IMG/VR virus record: IMGVR_UViG_3300009130_000014
Coordinates: 1-64,000 of that record
DNA length: 64,000 nucleotides
Strand: one strand, 5' to 3'
DNA from: a virus
Shown here: positions 2,813 to 15,286 of the stretch, in pieces
Layout of the letters: each line of letters begins with the position of its first letter
Numbering within the stretch: position 1 is the stretch's first letter
Notes under the pieces: generated by a model
What the model was told of the DNA's origin: nothing
Seen by the model: the letters and a program-made list of their open reading frames with translations, nothing else
The model's database searches: none
Position numbers and translations under genes: made by a program

Positions 2813-3308
2813 TATTAATCATTTTTAATGCTTTTAATAATCCAGCTTCAAGAGCCTGTTCGTAGGTGTCCCACCAACTCATAATGGAAAAAGAATCTTT
2901 CTTTTCATTAAAATCCCAAGAATCCTTCTTTCTTCCTTTTTCACAATTAGTGGTTATATCCCATATGTAGGCGTATTCAGAGTCGTCTATACAAGTGTAA
3001 TGAATACATAGCTTAATCTCATGAACCTCTCTCAACCATCTTTGTAGTAATGATTGGGTTGTAACTGTATAAGCCTCAAAATACTTAGGGTTATTTTGAC
3101 AACCAAAACATCCTCCACCATTTTTAGTAAATACCAAGTCTTTCTTATTCCAGTTTTCTTTACTAGCTAAATCATATCCATCATAACCATTAGGCTCGTC
3201 TTCATTTTTATGAAATTTATCACCAATGTATGCTGTATAAGTAGGAATATCAAATCCCTTCTCCTTAGCTAACTTAGCTGTTTCAAATGATATTAGTTCT
3301 TCTTTCAT
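2796..3308 (-). CDS. Conserved phage hypothetical protein, 170 aa ('ETAKLAKEKGF' family)
   Basis: A leftward gene. The N-terminus ISFETAKLAKEKGFDIPTY, the central TTQSLLQRWLREVHEIKLCI and the C-terminal WDTYEQALEAGLLKALKMI form a pattern that I recognise from uncharacterised proteins common in Bacteroidetes phages and mobile elements. The C-terminal 'TYEQALEAGLxxAL' is the most conserved part in memory. There is a CxxC at GGCFGCQNN near residue 67. Function unknown. It begins a three-gene overlapping operon (2812, 2541) and is preceded by a long leader containing the strong hairpin 3339-3392. Confidence 0.8.
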   Translation of the reverse strand: MKEELISFETAKLAKEKGFDIPTYTAYIGDKFHKNEDEPNGYDGYDLASKENWNKKDLVFTKNGGGCFGCQNNPKYFEAYTVTTQSLLQRWLREVHEIKLCIHYTCIDDSEYAYIWDITTNCEKGRKKDSWDFNEKKDSFSIMSWWDTYEQALEAGLLKALKMINNEKEQ

Positions 3309-3338
3309 TTTAGTTTTGTTTAATGTTTAATAGATTAC

Positions 3339-3392
3339 AGTTTAGTAAGGTATCAAAGGTTTCTCACACCTTATCAACCTTACTAATTAACT
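3339..3392 (-). promoter_or_regulatory. Long leader hairpin
   Basis: AGTTTAGTAAGGT on the left pairs with ACCTTACTAATTAACT on the right (three extra bases bulged), and an inner AGGT 3357-3360 pairs with ACCT 3368-3371 around a 7-base loop. It lies about 30 bases upstream of the start codon at 3308. It may be the terminator or processing site of the upstream RNA, or a leader control element. No T-tract follows. Confidence 0.5.
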
Positions 3393-3488
3393 GGATACAA
3401 GGCCCTTTGGCATATTATAACTACTTATTGAGAAGTAAGTAATTAAGCCCTAACATCGTAACCTTAGTATCATATGCATCCGCCTTCG

Positions 3489-3571
3489 TAACCCAGACAT
3501 GAATCGAACATGTGACACACGTTCTGCCTTTCGACAGTCATTACGCTGCTCTACCACTGAGCTACTGGGTT
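3489..3571 (-). tRNA. tRNA-like gene with abnormal anticodon arm
   Basis: Read leftwards from 3571: acceptor AACCCAG/CTGGGTT (7 perfect pairs), U8-A9, D arm GCTC-AGTGGTA-GAGC, T arm ACATG-TTCGATT-CATGT, discriminator A, and no encoded CCA. These parts are all canonical. The segment between the D and T stems is 34 bases instead of about 23. It does not give a 5-bp stem with a 7-base loop. It folds best as GCGT/ACGT around CTGTC-GAAA-GGCAG (3524-3537), a GNRA-capped hairpin, so no anticodon can be assigned. Alternatives are an 11-base insertion in the loop (a GAC anticodon would then be possible) or a decayed or decoy tRNA. The only tRNA-like sequence I found in the window. Confidence 0.7.
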
Positions 3572-3670
3572 ATGGGCTAGGTCTTTTAAAGAGTTCCCAA
3601 CCTTTTCTCCACTAGTCTTTCCGAGTAGTCAAGAGATAACTTCCCTAGTGCCTCTTACACTGTATCCCTA

Positions 3671-3847
3671 CTAACTAGTATTCGGAATATACACAATTTG
3701 AGCTTCATTGATAGGCTTGTGTGGAATTTGCAAAGAGTTTAATTGTCCCCAACAAGGTTGTAATCCTTGTAACCATACACTAAGGCACATGTATTCATTT
3801 ATACACACTTTATCTTTATCTTCGATGTTATTATACAATATGGGCAT
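3671..3847 (-). CDS. Candidate small protein, 58 aa
   Basis: A leftward open frame of 58 codons from the ATG at 3847 to TAG. The peptide has varied, protein-like composition (for example CLSVWLQGLQ, GQLNSLQIPHKPINEA, QIVYIPNTS), with three Cys and three Trp/Tyr-rich patches. The start codon falls in the 23-base loop of a perfect 10-bp hairpin (3827-3836 with 3860-3869). A second stem, 3771-3785 with 3873-3887, pairs the leader with codons about 21-26. Further hairpins lie inside the frame (3752-3770, 3790-3805), so it may instead be a structured non-coding RNA. No family is confidently recognised. Confidence 0.45.
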   Translation of the reverse strand: MPILYNNIEDKDKVCINEYMCLSVWLQGLQPCWGQLNSLQIPHKPINEAQIVYIPNTS

Positions 3848-4137
3848 TTACGCTTGACAGTATAATAACACTCCTTAGTGTATAGTTAGTTATTAAAGCC
3901 TCTAACGTTTTAGACAATACTGAATATAATTTAATCAGCGTAAATCACTTATGCAAGCAGCTCGTTAGTGGCGATAATCCTACAATTGGATTAGGGAAAT
4001 ATTTTATATTAAGGTTTTACAAGGTTATAATAGATTGTTAATTAAGGTGAAGGTGAAGTAGGATAAAATGAATAAAAAGCTATATTAGTTATGACTTAAT
4101 AAAACTTGATGATGAAGGAGACTCTCGAAAAGAAGGG
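3848..4137 (-). ncRNA. ATG-free structured leader or non-coding RNA region
   Basis: About 290 bases containing no ATG at all on the leftward strand and no usable rightward frame. It includes the hairpin AATCC-TACAATT-GGATT around 3977-3993. Right of the small frame's start it carries the 5' arms of two long stems that pair with that frame (3860-3869 and 3873-3887). It lies between a terminator-like hairpin and the candidate gene at 3671-3847. I see no match to a known RNA family. Confidence 0.35.
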
Positions 4138-4161
4138 AAGGAGTAGTGAATACTACTCCTT
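4138..4161 (-). terminator. Perfect 10-bp hairpin after the 4175-4444 gene
   Basis: AAGGAGTAGT (4138-4147) and ACTACTCCTT (4152-4161) pair perfectly around a 4-base loop, 13 bases after the leftward stop at 4175. The following leftward sequence is pyrimidine-rich (CCCTTCTTTTC) but not a clean T-tract. Probably a transcription terminator or RNA-stabilising 3' end. Confidence 0.6.
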
Positions 4162-4174
4162 AACTCCCTGAGAA

Positions 4175-8488: not shown

Positions 8489-8594
8489 ATTCTGCGAAAT
8501 CAGACCAAAAGTTTGCGATGGAGAATGTGAAATATGCAAAGATAGAAGACCTGCCAAAAGAACAAGAGGTAAAAGAACAAAAAATGAAAGATAA
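8463..8594 (+). CDS. Small Cys-rich basic protein, 43 aa
   Basis: A frame from the ATG at 8463 to TAA at 8594 encodes C11, C18, C22 and C25 (FCEIRPKVCDGECEICKDRR), followed by a very basic tail (PAKRTRGKRTKNER). Four closely spaced Cys suggest a zinc knuckle, and the tail suggests RNA or DNA binding. It overlaps the upstream gene by 26 bases and the first paralogue by 11 bases. This explains the bases that would otherwise form an odd, low-complexity N-terminal extension of the first paralogue. Confidence 0.5.
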   Translation: MVRNQQKVRFCEIRPKVCDGECEICKDRRPAKRTRGKRTKNER

Positions 8595-8988
8595 ATATTA
8601 CACACCAGAAGCAAAAGAACTGCATATTGATTTTGAGTTTGAGTACAGTAGGAATGGAGTATGGTATGAAGAAGTAATAAACGACTTATACGATGCTTAT
8701 GATGTATGGAAAGATCATGAAGCAGGCAGACATCCTATCAGAGTCAAATACTTAGATCATGCGGATATAGAAAGCTTAGGATTTGAAATCTATGATTATG
8801 ATGATATGGATTCTTTTTCTAATGGTAATATTACGATAGAAGTAAATGGTTACACTAATGAGTTAATAGTTGAGATATGGACCAGAGCAAATACAATAGA
8901 TAAAAGTCCTGAAATGGTTTTTAAAGGTACTATCAAGAACAAAAGTGAACTTAAGAAAATATTAAAGCAGATAGGTTATGGAGGATAA
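8584..8988 (+). CDS. Tandem paralogue 1, 134 aa
   Basis: The start at 8584 (MKDKYYTPEAKELH) is chosen because the two following paralogues begin with the same KYYTP motif. A start at 8518 would add 22 residues translated from bases better explained by the 8463-8594 gene. Shared blocks are KYYTP...FHxxFEYE at the N-terminus, 'RVKYLDxxDIESLGFE' in the middle and 'KNKSELKKILKQI' at the C-terminus. Proteins of this type recur in Bacteroidetes phages without known function. The fold looks like a small alpha-beta domain. Confidence 0.7.
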   Translation: MKDKYYTPEAKELHIDFEFEYSRNGVWYEEVINDLYDAYDVWKDHEAGRHPIRVKYLDHADIESLGFEIYDYDDMDSFSNGNITIEVNGYTNELIVEIWTRANTIDKSPEMVFKGTIKNKSELKKILKQIGYGG

Positions 8989-9430
8989 GTATTACACACC
9001 TACTATTGATGAATTTCATGTAGGATTTGAGTATGAACTTTATGATGATCACGCATGTGAAGGTATGTCTGATTATTATGAGGGAGAAGTTAGAACTTGG
9101 TCTAAAGAAGTATTCTATCGTTTACTACACCCTAATCATAAAGGAAATGGTGGCCATGTGGCTTGGAAAATGGATAACCTATTATCTTCTATTGAAAAAG
9201 GGGACATTAGAGTAAAATACCTAGACAGAGAAGACATTGAAAGTTTAGGGTTTGATCTTCGTTCAGAGGATGAGTTTTATTCTAAAGATAATAAGTATAA
9301 CATCTACACAGGTAATAAAAACATAGAGATTTATTCAGAAGGAGTATGTTTTATAGGAAGAATTAAAAACAAATCAGAATTAAAGAGGATACTTAAACAA
9401 ATTAAAGATGAAGAAGTACTATACACCTGA
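8978..9430 (+). CDS. Tandem paralogue 2, 150 aa
   Basis: The second member of the three-gene family. It has EDKYYTPTIDEFHVGFEYE at the N-terminus, RVKYLDREDIESLGFDL in the middle and IKNKSELKRILKQI at the end. Compared with paralogues 1 and 3 it carries a longer insert after residue 25 with several His and Trp (HPNHKGNGGHVAWKM). It overlaps its neighbours by 11 and 23 bases, so the three are probably co-translated. Function unknown. Confidence 0.8.
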   Translation: MEDKYYTPTIDEFHVGFEYELYDDHACEGMSDYYEGEVRTWSKEVFYRLLHPNHKGNGGHVAWKMDNLLSSIEKGDIRVKYLDREDIESLGFDLRSEDEFYSKDNKYNIYTGNKNIEIYSEGVCFIGRIKNKSELKRILKQIKDEEVLYT

Positions 9431-9815
9431 ATTAGAAGAATTCCATGAAGGATTTGAGTATGAGAAACTAATTCTAGGAACACGTTGGAATGAAGAAATT
9501 TGGGATGCTATATCTAGTTTTGATTATTCTGAGTTATACGACTTTGATGTTAAAGATTGTAGAGTCAAATACTTAGACAGAGAAGATATTGAAAGCTTAG
9601 GTTTTGAGTTGTACATATCTAAAAGTGACTACACTATTTACAAAGGTAAAGGGAAATGTTCTTTATTTAAAAACGTGTACTTAGACTTAGAAGAAGGTAT
9701 GACTGTTGAAATTCATAATAACGAAGATTTTGAAGACCATGCAACTGCTTTCTATGGAACCATCAAAAACAAAAGCGAATTAAAGAGAGTTTTAAAAATG
9801 ATAACTTATGAGTAA
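9408..9815 (+). CDS. Tandem paralogue 3, 135 aa
   Basis: The third member of the family: KKYYTPELEEFHEGFEYE, RVKYLDREDIESLGFEL and IKNKSELKRVLKMI. The nearly identical REDIESLGF block in paralogues 2 and 3 points to a fairly recent duplication, with the region between the blocks free to diverge. It overlaps the next gene by 8 bases. Function unknown. Confidence 0.8.
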   Translation: MKKYYTPELEEFHEGFEYEKLILGTRWNEEIWDAISSFDYSELYDFDVKDCRVKYLDREDIESLGFELYISKSDYTIYKGKGKCSLFKNVYLDLEEGMTVEIHNNEDFEDHATAFYGTIKNKSELKRVLKMITYE

Positions 9816-10604: not shown

Positions 10605-12855
10605 TAAAATAGTAAAAAATGCTAACTTCATACACGATATAGAAAAGTATCATCCTTTATCACTTAAGTATAAAAGATACTGGAAAATGATGAAGAGAAG
10701 GTGCATAGAGGGTTATTGGAGTGAAGGTAAGTGGATGCCGGGTCAGCTTTACTATTATATCAACTTTGGAAGAATATTAATGCATGTTAAAGGGTCTAAG
10801 ACTAAAACAGTAGGTAGGCCCTTTTTACGTGATGTAGAATGGGAAAAGGCTTATGTATATATAGAAGCAAAAGGATTTTCAGGCTTTAAAGAAAGTGACA
10901 TAACATGTTCTAGATGGGTTGAAGAAATAAATAACTTAGCAGGAGAAGAGGCTAAATCTCATCTAGAAGATCTTATATCAAGAGGTAAGATAACTGAAAC
11001 AGAAGTACTTAACCCTGAACAATTTCCTGATAATCCTAAGCTTAAACCTTTTGAAGCCGCAAGAACTTTTTTAAGGAAAATACATCATACTGATTTAGGT
11101 AAGCCTTTATATAAAAATACTGCTAAGAATGTAGTGGATTTAGAGTGCAGAAGAATAGGAAAAAGTTATTTCGCAGGAAACGGTCTTATTAATCATAACT
11201 TTTTATTTGATGGGGCAACAGATTATGATGTATACCTAGATGCTATAAAACAAGGATTGCCTTTTTCTAGTGAGACTTTAGTAGGAGCTATAGATGCAAA
11301 ATATACTAAAGATTTATTATCTAAATGTCAATTAGGTTTAGATAATTTACCTGGGTCTATGACAGTAGGGGGTTCTTATTATCCTAGTCCTTTATCTAAA
11401 AAATGGAGAGGCTCGTTTGCTCCTTCTAAATACATAGAATCTGCGTATGATGTAAAGGTGAGCGGAGGATGGATCACTAAAGGGTCAAGATCTAAGGTTC
11501 ATAATAGATCATTTGCTGATAATCCGTTAGCAGGTAATGGTACAGGGCCTAACTTAGTAATACTTGAGGAATATGGATTCATGACAAACCTTATTGATTC
11601 TTTAGGTGCAATGAAAGATGCTACTTATGAAGGATCTGATAAATTCGGGGTTATATGGATGACAGGTACGGGGGGAGAAGGAGATTCTGCTGCTATCTCA
11701 GATGCAAAAGAAGTATTCTATGATCCCCATAACTATGACTGCCTTGCTTTTGAAGATATATGGGAAGAATCTGGAGATATAAGTTATTTTGTACCTTATC
11801 AAATGAGACTTGATGAATACAGAAACGATGAAGGCGTTATTGATCAAGATAGAGCCCTTAAGCAAATATCTAAGAAAAGAGATAAGCTTAAAAGTGGTAA
11901 GTCTAAAAAAGCATTGTATAGTGAAATGCAAAACAATCCACTTACCCCTAGTGAAGCCTTTATGATAGATGATACTAATATATTCCCTGTAGCAGAGTTA
12001 AAGGAACATAAAAACTGGTTAAGATCTGCTAGTGAAACCGATTCTTTTGTTAAGGGTCAATGCGGTGAGTTAGTATGGGTGCAAGGAGAGAAGGAATCAG
12101 AACTTCAATGGAAACCTGATTTAAATAATAACTTAACTCCTACATCTTTTCCTGTACGAAAAGGAGATAAAATAAATGGATGTATTCAAATATGGGAACA
12201 TCCTCAGAAAATAGGAGATAACATACCTCATGGATTATATATAGCAGGTACTGACCCTTATGATCAAGATCAGGCTGCTAATTCTGCTTCATTAGGTTCA
12301 ACATTTATTTATAAAACATTTCATACAAGTGATGGGATATATGACTGGCCTGTAGCAGAATACACAGGAAGACCTGCTACTGTATCTGAACATCATGAAA
12401 ATATAAGAAAGTTATTATTATACTATAACGCTCGTGATTTATATGAAAATGAGAGAAATAGTTTAAAGATGCACTTTGAACATAAAAATTCTTTATATTT
12501 GCTTAGTAAGACTCCAACTATACTTAAAGCAACAGAAGGTTCTAAAGTTCAAAGACAATACGGTATACATATGACGAAACATATTAAAACAGAGTTAGAA
12601 ATATATTTAAGAGATTGGTTAATAGAAGACAGAGGAGATGGTAAGTTAAATTTACATACAATCTATAGCCCTGCTTTACTAGAAGAATTAATTAGATATA
12701 ATGATACAGGGAACTTTGATAGAGTTATTGCATTTATGTTAGTAATTTTACACAGGTTACAAAATCATAAAATAAAAGTAACCGAAGTCAAAAAAGAAAA
12801 GGAGCAGGATCCGTTCTTAATTAGAGCGTTTAAAGGTAAGTTTTATGGAAAGTAG
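10585..12855 (+). CDS. terL: Terminase large subunit (TerL)
   Basis: A 756-residue packaging motor and headful nuclease. ATPase domain: Walker A-like CRRIGKS (residues 188-194), Walker B LVILEE (324-329) with the catalytic Glu. Nuclease (RNase H-like) domain: IAGTDPYDQD with D557, E632 in MHFEH and D712 in NFDRVIAF as the likely acidic metal ligands. crAss TerL proteins are similarly long and have the same motif order. It docks on the portal encoded directly downstream, whose gene overlaps by 11 bases. The protein cuts concatemers and drives DNA into the prohead. Confidence 0.93.
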   Translation: MEPKRHDKIVKNANFIHDIEKYHPLSLKYKRYWKMMKRRCIEGYWSEGKWMPGQLYYYINFGRILMHVKGSKTKTVGRPFLRDVEWEKAYVYIEAKGFSGFKESDITCSRWVEEINNLAGEEAKSHLEDLISRGKITETEVLNPEQFPDNPKLKPFEAARTFLRKIHHTDLGKPLYKNTAKNVVDLECRRIGKSYFAGNGLINHNFLFDGATDYDVYLDAIKQGLPFSSETLVGAIDAKYTKDLLSKCQLGLDNLPGSMTVGGSYYPSPLSKKWRGSFAPSKYIESAYDVKVSGGWITKGSRSKVHNRSFADNPLAGNGTGPNLVILEEYGFMTNLIDSLGAMKDATYEGSDKFGVIWMTGTGGEGDSAAISDAKEVFYDPHNYDCLAFEDIWEESGDISYFVPYQMRLDEYRNDEGVIDQDRALKQISKKRDKLKSGKSKKALYSEMQNNPLTPSEAFMIDDTNIFPVAELKEHKNWLRSASETDSFVKGQCGELVWVQGEKESELQWKPDLNNNLTPTSFPVRKGDKINGCIQIWEHPQKIGDNIPHGLYIAGTDPYDQDQAANSASLGSTFIYKTFHTSDGIYDWPVAEYTGRPATVSEHHENIRKLLLYYNARDLYENERNSLKMHFEHKNSLYLLSKTPTILKATEGSKVQRQYGIHMTKHIKTELEIYLRDWLIEDRGDGKLNLHTIYSPALLEELIRYNDTGNFDRVIAFMLVILHRLQNHKIKVTEVKKEKEQDPFLIRAFKGKFYGK

Positions 12856-15286
12856 ATATTTAAAAAATGAATTAAGTGCTGTTTTGCCCGCACAAAAAAT
12901 ATCATTAGCAAAGAAGACTAAGAAATGGAGAGAGGATTGTGTAGAAGCTATTTCTAATATGGGTAATGACACTCTTCGTAATGATAGAACTTCACGTCAG
13001 TTAAAGCAGGTTAATTATGATTTAGTTAATTCTATATATGACGAACAAGACTTTAAGCATGTTACAGATCCCTATGGCTTAAATCAAGTAGGGAATCAAC
13101 CTGCAAGATTACACGATTATAATATAATAACAAATAAGATAAATCTGCTTAAAGGAGAGGAAATGTCTCGTCCATTTAACTGGACTGTAATGTCTGTTAA
13201 TGGGGATGCTATATCCGAAAAAGAACAGCAAAAAAAGGATTTATTATTATATCTTACTAAAAGCGAACTAGCTCATAAGCTAGGAATTGACTTAGAAGTA
13301 GAGCCTCCAGAAGGTGAGGATTTACCGCAATCATTTCGCGAAGTAGATGAGTATCTTAAGTATTCTTTAAAGGATATAAGAGAAGATTGGGCTTCTGATA
13401 TATTAACATACCTTAAAGAAAGAGAAAAGCTTGAACTAAAGTTTAATCAAGGGTGGGAGCACGGAATGGTGTCCACAGAAGAAGTTTATTATATAGGTAT
13501 TTCTAACAACGAGCCTAAGCTACGTGTAGTTAACCCTTTAAATTGTGACTTTGATAGGAATCCAGATAACCCTAATATAGAAGACGGAGACTGGTTTAAA
13601 GAAGAAAGATGGATGACTTCAGGTCAAATATTAGACGAATATGGAGAATATTTAAAAGAAGGAGAAATTGAAAAATTAGACAGAGGTGAATTAAGAAGAA
13701 GTCTTACTAACCAAATGTATCCTGGGTTTGCTTATTCGTCTTCGGATATACACGAAAAAGAAAAAAGAGGAGGAGGTGCTGATGCTACACATTACTTAGT
13801 AACAGAAGTATGCTGGAAAAGTATGAAGAAGATAGGCTTTGTTACTTATCCAGACGAAATGGGTGAAACTCAAGAAGGTATAGTAGATGAATCATTTAAG
13901 TTAGATGATGAAATGAAAGTGTTAGGCTATACCTTAGAATGGAGATGGATACCTGAAATATGGAAAGGTACTAAAATAGCCGAAGACTTTTACGTAAGCA
14001 TCGAGCCTATGCCTAATCAATATAGAAATATGGATAACCCTGCTGAGGTAAAATTACCTTACATAGGCTTTATCTATAACTGTACTAATACAGCTCCTAC
14101 AAGTATTGTTGATTTATTAAAACCTTATCAGTATTTATATAATATAGTATGGTTTAGATTAGAAGCTGAATTAGCAAAAGCGAAAGGTAAGAAGTTCGTA
14201 ATGGATTTAGCCCAAGTTCCTAAGAGTGAAGGGATGGACCTAGATAAATGGATGTATATGTTCGATAATGTAGGTATAGCATTTATTAACTCTTTTGAAG
14301 AAGGTAAAGATCAGTTTCAAGGACAGACTAGTCAGTTTAATCAATTCACTCAAATTGACATGACTCTTTCTCAGAGTATTGGACAGTATATTTCTATATT
14401 AGCTAAAATAGAACAAATAGCGGATAAAATAGTAGGTATAACACCTCAACGCGAGGGTAATATAGCACAACATGAGACAGTAGGAGGTGTGGATAGATCT
14501 ATCACGCAATCGAGTTATGTAACAGAGCCATGGTTTTATATGCATAACGAGGTTAAAAAGAAAGTGATGACTCACTTACTTGAGATGGCTAAATTTGCAT
14601 ATCCTGAATCTAAAAAGATTAATTATATAGTAGATGATACTCAAAGAGTTAACGTTACTATAGATATGGATAAATTCTCTGATTCAGAGTACGGAGTGTT
14701 TGTTACTAACTCAAGTAAAGAACATGCTACTTTCCAAAAGTTAGAAGGATTAGCTCAACAAGCTTTATCGAGTGGTCAAGCTAAGCTATCTGATATTATA
14801 TCAGTTTATAAAGCAACTAGTGTTGCTGAATTAAGTTCTGCTATAAAAGAATCGGAAGAAAGAACATTACAGCAAGAACAGGCTCAGGCAGAGCAAGCTC
14901 AGCAAATGCAGCAACAGCAATTACAGGCTCAAGCTCAAGAGAAAGAAGCGGATAGAATGTTTGAAGCAGAGCAGAATCAACTTGACAGAGATGTTGATAT
15001 CAGAAAGGCTGTTATTCAGAGTATGGGATTTGATCAAGATATTCAAAATAACAATCAGAATGATATGATAGAATATGGAAAACTTAGTTTAGCTGAAATG
15101 GAAGCTAGACGAAAGAGCGAAAATGAAAGTGCTAAGTTAGATAATGAGAAGAATAAAATAGAAAAAGAAGCAGAGTCTAAGGAAAAGGATAGAGCGTTAA
15201 AACGAGAAGAAATTGCTTCTAAAGAAAGAATAGAAAAACTTAAAGCCAGAACTGCCTTAAAGAATAAGGTGGCTGGAGAAAAATAA
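12845..15286 (+). CDS. Portal protein
   Basis: An 813-residue protein directly downstream of terL, the usual portal position. Its length is like that of crAss portals. It has an N-terminal wing domain, a central helical stem region (LSQSIGQYISILAKIEQIAD) and a 'GVDRSITQSSYV' motif, and a long C-terminal Gln/Ala/Glu-rich coiled coil (residues about 675-810) that probably forms the barrel inside the head. Twelve copies form the DNA channel and terminase docking site. It ends with ATAATGA, overlapping the next start. Confidence 0.88.
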   Translation: MESRYLKNELSAVLPAQKISLAKKTKKWREDCVEAISNMGNDTLRNDRTSRQLKQVNYDLVNSIYDEQDFKHVTDPYGLNQVGNQPARLHDYNIITNKINLLKGEEMSRPFNWTVMSVNGDAISEKEQQKKDLLLYLTKSELAHKLGIDLEVEPPEGEDLPQSFREVDEYLKYSLKDIREDWASDILTYLKEREKLELKFNQGWEHGMVSTEEVYYIGISNNEPKLRVVNPLNCDFDRNPDNPNIEDGDWFKEERWMTSGQILDEYGEYLKEGEIEKLDRGELRRSLTNQMYPGFAYSSSDIHEKEKRGGGADATHYLVTEVCWKSMKKIGFVTYPDEMGETQEGIVDESFKLDDEMKVLGYTLEWRWIPEIWKGTKIAEDFYVSIEPMPNQYRNMDNPAEVKLPYIGFIYNCTNTAPTSIVDLLKPYQYLYNIVWFRLEAELAKAKGKKFVMDLAQVPKSEGMDLDKWMYMFDNVGIAFINSFEEGKDQFQGQTSQFNQFTQIDMTLSQSIGQYISILAKIEQIADKIVGITPQREGNIAQHETVGGVDRSITQSSYVTEPWFYMHNEVKKKVMTHLLEMAKFAYPESKKINYIVDDTQRVNVTIDMDKFSDSEYGVFVTNSSKEHATFQKLEGLAQQALSSGQAKLSDIISVYKATSVAELSSAIKESEERTLQQEQAQAEQAQQMQQQQLQAQAQEKEADRMFEAEQNQLDRDVDIRKAVIQSMGFDQDIQNNNQNDMIEYGKLSLAEMEARRKSENESAKLDNEKNKIEKEAESKEKDRALKREEIASKERIEKLKARTALKNKVAGEK

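Follow-up and report, generated by a model that had tools for sequence, protein, structure and literature searches.

What could a phage gain from an RNA that keeps the shape of a transfer RNA (tRNA) everywhere except in the arm that reads codons? The question is raised by a gene in a 64,000-nucleotide (nt) stretch of viral DNA, hereafter the window, which covers positions 1 to 64,000 of the IMG/VR record IMGVR_UViG_3300009130_000014. The record is 89,606 bases long and its portal protein is ~36% identical to the portals of crAss-like phages. A first-pass annotation of the window had described a tRNA-like RNA without a normal anticodon loop at 3489-3571. Infernal returned a match to the Rfam tRNA family RF00005 at exactly these coordinates (48.2 bits, E 3e-07 for the window) and placed the gene on the minus strand, and ARAGORN called no tRNA there. 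As the annotation had proposed, this is the sole tRNA-like gene: no other RF00005 match occurs across the whole record. Our favoured reading, which we hold with about even confidence, is that the window encodes a tRNA-shaped RNA that does not decode and belongs to a set widespread in phages.

The body of this 83-nt RNA has the 7-base-pair (bp) acceptor, D arm, T arm and tertiary-contact bases of a canonical class I tRNA. Starting from the 5' end at 3571, the acceptor strand AACCCAG (3565-3571) pairs at 7/7 positions with CTGGGTT (3490-3496). It is followed by TA, a canonical D arm (3548-3562; stem GCTC/GAGC, 4/4 paired, loop AGTGGTA), an A, the replaced arm, a 5-nt variable loop (GTGTC), a canonical T arm (3497-3513; stem ACATG/CATGT, 5/5 paired, loop TTCGATT), and, after the second acceptor strand, the discriminator A at 3489. 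CCA is not encoded at the 3' end. In line with the first-pass annotation, all helices outside the replaced arm are fully paired. The elbow bases T8, A14, G15, G18, G19, A21, C48, T54, T55, C56 and A58 are all in place.

The anticodon arm (3519-3546, minus strand; GCGTAATGACTGTCGAAAGGCAGAACGT) has 28 nt where a normal one has 17, which is the excess of 11 bases first reported, and it contains the GAAA-capped hairpin CTGTC/GGCAG at 3524-3537. The extended hairpin that had been pictured is present, but it is not one continuous helix: a lower stem of 4 bp (GCGT/ACGT) is followed by an asymmetric 5x1 internal loop (AATGA facing A), the 5 bp of the upper stem and the tetraloop. A usable anticodon loop is indeed lacking. 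Only 1 of 5 pairs forms in the 5-7-5 register, so there is no normal 5-bp/7-nt arm with U33, and ARAGORN identifies no anticodon. Since a tRNA-shaped RNA without a usable anticodon loop is the only tRNA-like gene, a role in codon supply is argued against. The sequence shows an acceptor and an elbow (D and T loops) like those of a working tRNA, with a structured hairpin in place of the codon-reading arm. This combination of a canonical body with a replaced anticodon arm is also what defines the phage set described below.

Several known types of RNA were considered and fit poorly. A class II tRNA (Leu/Ser/Tyr) does not fit the short variable loop, the extra bases, which precede that loop, or the absence of a normal anticodon arm. 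ARAGORN finds no transfer-messenger RNA, and the D stem is complete rather than degenerate. A tRNA pseudogene should have changes in all arms or an intact copy in relatives, but only the anticodon arm deviates here and the equivalent place in relatives, many of which are fragments, has no tRNA. Finally, an intron-containing tRNA of archaeal type needs 27-31/39-43 pairing, U33 and a purine at 37. Here 4/5 pairs form, with an A31-A39 mismatch, and the best 11-nt removal leaves U37; to our knowledge, a tRNA splicing enzyme is not expected in a bacterial host.

Is the window RNA an isolated case? We searched IMG/VR with a pattern in which a canonical D arm and a canonical T loop enclose a middle exceeding the normal length by 6 nt or more, without demanding acceptor pairing, and called tRNA-shaped the matches with 6-7/7 acceptor and 4-5/5 T-stem pairs; the counts are lower bounds. 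At least 102 matches are tRNA-shaped; in at least 87 of these (84 distinct) the anticodon arm is neither normal nor of intron type. Most acceptors pair 7/7 among the matches listed, with widely differing sequences. The identical pattern, applied to GTDB genomes as a cellular control, gave 95 tRNA-shaped matches, 67 of which have a 5-bp stem across the insert and U33. These intron-type matches are mostly archaeal intron-bearing tRNAs, and the type accounts for only 10 of the 102 viral cases among the matches listed. Archaeal intron-containing tRNAs resemble the window RNA in having too long a middle between their canonical D and T arms, but they regain a 5-bp stem with U33 once the insert is removed, which few of the viral RNAs do.

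Further properties of the viral set concern its arms and its genomic context. The exact D arm of the window RNA followed by a middle of 35-40 nt occurs in 32 stretches (complete IMG/VR count), and the arms of two members (L313 and L290 in our numbering) share its plan of two stems, a 5' bulge and a 4-nt loop. Taken together, the replaced arms show a small gain in stability over shuffled sequences (median z -0.52, Wilcoxon p 2e-5). No other tRNA was found in 26 of the 50 records checked, 23 having one match and 3 none above threshold. Some arms also have sequence features in common. The motif AGGGnACA..TTGCGT..nCCC is found in L143, L162 and L302, with a compensatory stem change and a conserved loop, and the otherwise different sequences of L051, L095 and L165 share the core GGTGAAGGnCCnAAAnGC. 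GACG tetraloops recur on replaced arms (L081, L098, L300, L303, L313) and are commoner than other tetraloops.

The strongest evidence that such RNAs are working genes is supplied by cultivated phages. Two of these correspond to members of the set, L134 matching phiC31 and L073 matching Streptomyces phage Vash. In phiC31 (L395, NC_001978.3), the non-decoding tRNA-like RNA lies at 250-336, unannotated, between genes 13 and 14. Relatives of phiC31 among the Streptomyces phages have it too: homologues occupy the corresponding position in Lilbooboo, Euratis and Samora, and more divergent copies are present in Sebastisaurus, RemusLoopin, Heather and AbbeyMikolon. Most are not annotated, while the Lilbooboo copy is given as tRNA-Gly and the AbbeyMikolon copy as tRNA-OTHER. 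In an alignment of 11 sequences of this family, 97.7% of cells are paired, a value equalled by none of 500 shuffles, and slid structures reach 25-51%. Two-sided changes occur at 12 pairs (6 of the 7 in the acceptor, 2 in the T stem, 2 in the lower arm and 2 in the upper arm), and the apical tetraloop interchanges between GAAA, GCAA, GTAA and UUCG. Among phiC31, phiBT1, Vash, Lilbooboo, Euratis and Samora, identity averages 99.4% in the body (98-100%), 69% in the arm and 72-76% in the flanks; the body of phiBT1 is identical to that of phiC31 and its arm is entirely different. The tRNA body of this family is therefore strongly constrained, and its arm is an exchangeable part with a structure of its own. 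Compensatory pair changes and tetraloop swaps on a near-invariant body show that the arm in this family is a selected structure and not a product of decay. The internal loop of three arms (L395, L397 and L400) holds differing 6-nt palindromes, CCCGGG, TCCGGA and CCATGG, the three variants seen, which might let two RNA molecules pair.

How might such RNAs be made and used? The acceptor/elbow half of a tRNA is what RNase P, RNase Z, the CCA-adding enzyme and EF-Tu recognise, and in the RNAs studied here variation or loss is always on the anticodon side, the acceptor and elbow being retained. Since the processing enzymes recognise the acceptor stem and elbow rather than the anticodon, we infer a tRNA-like maturation, in which host RNase P and RNase Z/exonucleases would trim the minus-strand transcript and CCA would be added. 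The product would be a stable, tRNA-sized RNA unable to decode, which would offer tRNA-binding factors a tRNA body with a freely chosen arm, as a natural tRNA scaffold or mimic. It could serve as a sponge or decoy for enzymes acting on the acceptor or elbow, or as a carrier of the arm hairpin. A decoy for anticodon nucleases, one form of the defence decoy suggested in the first-pass annotation, is disfavoured because the part cut by such enzymes is absent. More tentatively, and with some doubt, we propose that several phage groups use a natural tRNA scaffold whose body serves processing, stability and binding of host tRNA factors, and whose anticodon arm is an exchangeable slot for hairpins that function in gene control or in the conflict between phage and host. 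The copies in the crAss-like phage and in phiC31 would then be two examples of one broad overlooked class.

A number of results weigh against our favoured reading. No direct homologue of the window copy was found, hence its arm has no covariation support: an exact-arm DNA pattern search gave three matches, all unrelated, a pattern carrying its own acceptor gave none, and the best matches listed for the 83-mer in isolated phages span only 24-31 nt, chiefly of ordinary tRNA genes. The stability of the window arm alone is not significantly higher than that of shuffles (z -1.0, p about 0.15), and RNAfold, when run on the 83-mer without constraints, favours a different T-side pairing, a caveat on the fold. 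A few of the 87 (e.g., L153; L076/L116) are probably normal tRNAs whose variable region is unusual. The genes neighbouring the wider set have no common family and indicate no partner; scattered matches near its members include a homing endonuclease, an antirepressor, a terminase and an integrase.

A single copy without homologues would also be expected if the window gene were a decaying tRNA, one of the options initially listed, or if a tRNA-Val(GAC)-like gene, otherwise normal, had recently gained 11 nt within its anticodon arm. Deletion of CGAAAGGCAGA (minus strand) leaves GCGTA-ATGACTG-TACGT, with a 5-bp stem, U33 and GAC, which lends the idea some support for this copy. However, the resulting loop has U37, a position that is a purine in tRNAs, together with an A32/G38 combination, and all other tRNA positions are intact, unlike what undirected decay would leave. 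Analogous RNAs are moreover present in many phages, one family with covariation, and for the class as a whole acceptor pairing and the phiC31-family covariation speak against decay. We consider this origin of the window copy unlikely.

What do the relatives of the phage have at this locus? IMG/VR holds relatives of its major capsid protein at 67-86% identity. The case that relatives carry a normal tRNA here had been raised in the first-pass annotation, but no tRNA match was obtained at the corresponding position in the capsid relatives or in more distant ones, many of these records being fragments, and the gene is therefore not conserved within its clade. The DNA of the surrounding gap gave no convincing match in relatives either. 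Relatives do have versions altered in other ways, which count in favour of the non-decoding reading. Enlarged tRNA-like RNAs were found in L367 (121 nt), which is crAss-like by its capsid, and in L033 (104 nt), whose record is linked via the gene adjoining the window's copy. In 1.46 Mb of relatives, searched on both strands, a perfect acceptor with a T arm is found only in the window, L041 and L042 (shuffles gave 1 match in 5 replicates). At 12944-12999, L041 has a 56-nt armless tRNA-like element (acceptor, one hairpin and T arm), missed by Rfam, with a structured stretch and a hairpin resembling a terminator after it. In L042, an acceptor and a T arm make up each of two 42-nt minihelices (10690-10731 and 10829-10870), with neither a D nor an anticodon arm. 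The two differ by compensatory pairs, and each comes after a T run and adjoins a ~110-nt stem-closed RNA. The modules of both records lie on the strand equivalent to the window's minus strand and directly adjoin small stem-closed RNAs.

These modules bear on the main rival explanation for the window's phage group, which is a pure processing signal. The fold would mark RNase P/RNase Z cuts in a long non-coding leader, free the RNAs upstream and part the leader from the gene that begins at 3308, with the 83-mer as a by-product. The tRNA-like RNA does lie in an 866-nt structured non-coding gap (3309-4174, minus strand), the largest of the record, without any open reading frame (ORF) of at least 60 amino acids. 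Folding points to a candidate small structured RNA upstream of it, a 119-nt element with a closing stem of 16 bp (3770-3888, minus strand). The processing-signal idea, also put forward in the first-pass annotation, thus receives some support from L041 and L042. However, sequences within 120 nt up- or downstream of wider-set members are no more structured than those around normal tRNAs, L367 sits among tightly packed ORFs, and the selection on the arm in the phiC31 family is left unexplained. We therefore regard processing punctuation as possible but rather doubtful.

The same gap could instead encode one large structured RNA comparable to the phage RNAs GOLLD and ROOL, some 700-850 nt long, of which the tRNA-like part would be a domain and not a free RNA. 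The minus strand of the gap folds better than shuffles (z -3.9, from only 20 shuffles), and the predicted fold encloses the tRNA-like domain. The phage non-coding setting is alike, and some GOLLD members are covalently linked to tRNAs, phage tRNAs lying at times within the GOLLD linker (PMC12286853). A non-coding stretch of L047 shares the CAAGGATTRCAACCTTG hairpin with the window, but it lacks the tRNA-like part. Furthermore, the GOLLD and ROOL covariance models, like other Rfam large-RNA families, gave no match, and the folding of 200-nt windows around the tRNA-like RNA is unremarkable. Most members of the wider set lie outside large gaps, such a setting being unusual among them, and we find a single large RNA very unlikely.

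Our favoured reading, a non-decoding phage RNA, has partial parallels in known systems. Compared with canonical class I tRNAs (RF00005), the window RNA shares the acceptor, D arm, T arm, 5-nt variable loop and tertiary-contact bases, and differs by its missing anticodon arm. The tRNA-like RNAs of murine gammaherpesvirus 68 are matured by tRNA enzymes and not used in decoding. They are a viral precedent (cited in PMC6409571), but they come from an animal virus and their hairpins are linked outside the tRNA, whereas that of the window RNA is inside the anticodon arm. Phage tRNAs with altered anticodon loops escape tRNA-cutting defences and have been described as replacing cleaved host tRNAs (van den Berg 2023, PMC10264068; retron evasion, PMC11555353). 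The phage-encoded tRNA body is alike and tRNA-targeting defences are possibly relevant, but the window RNA cannot decode. The Bacillus cereus pseudo-tRNA tRNA-Other has no role in translation and yet has a cellular effect (PMC3399842). By description it is likewise tRNA-shaped and non-translational, but it is chromosomal and located at a genomic island.

We found no description of phage tRNA-like RNAs with a replaced anticodon arm in the open-access literature, which omits most subscription journals, so a report may exist. A large phage RNA set appears invisible to annotation because tRNA finders skip or mislabel its members ('tRNA-Gly', 'tRNA-OTHER', or nothing). If functional, these would be tRNA-shaped RNAs selected for a non-decoding role, which bears on why phages carry tRNA genes, and because phiC31 is a domesticated laboratory phage, the copy between its genes 13 and 14 makes the question testable now.

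A few minor observations concern the rest of the locus and the window. Gaps of similar size are present in several relatives, and GC content is raised at 3400-3700 within the window's gap, which may contain one or several further structured RNAs besides the tRNA-like one. Sites found by a sigma-70 promoter scan are no commoner than in shuffles, and the Bacteroidetes-type motif TAnnTTTG has a single occurrence, which is on the opposite strand. A weak match to the abiF RNA at 3691-3722 is under its cut-off and was taken as chance. Elsewhere in the window, the three consecutive ORFs at 8518-8988, 8978-9430 and 9408-9815 match identical stretches of relatives and look like tandem copies of one gene.
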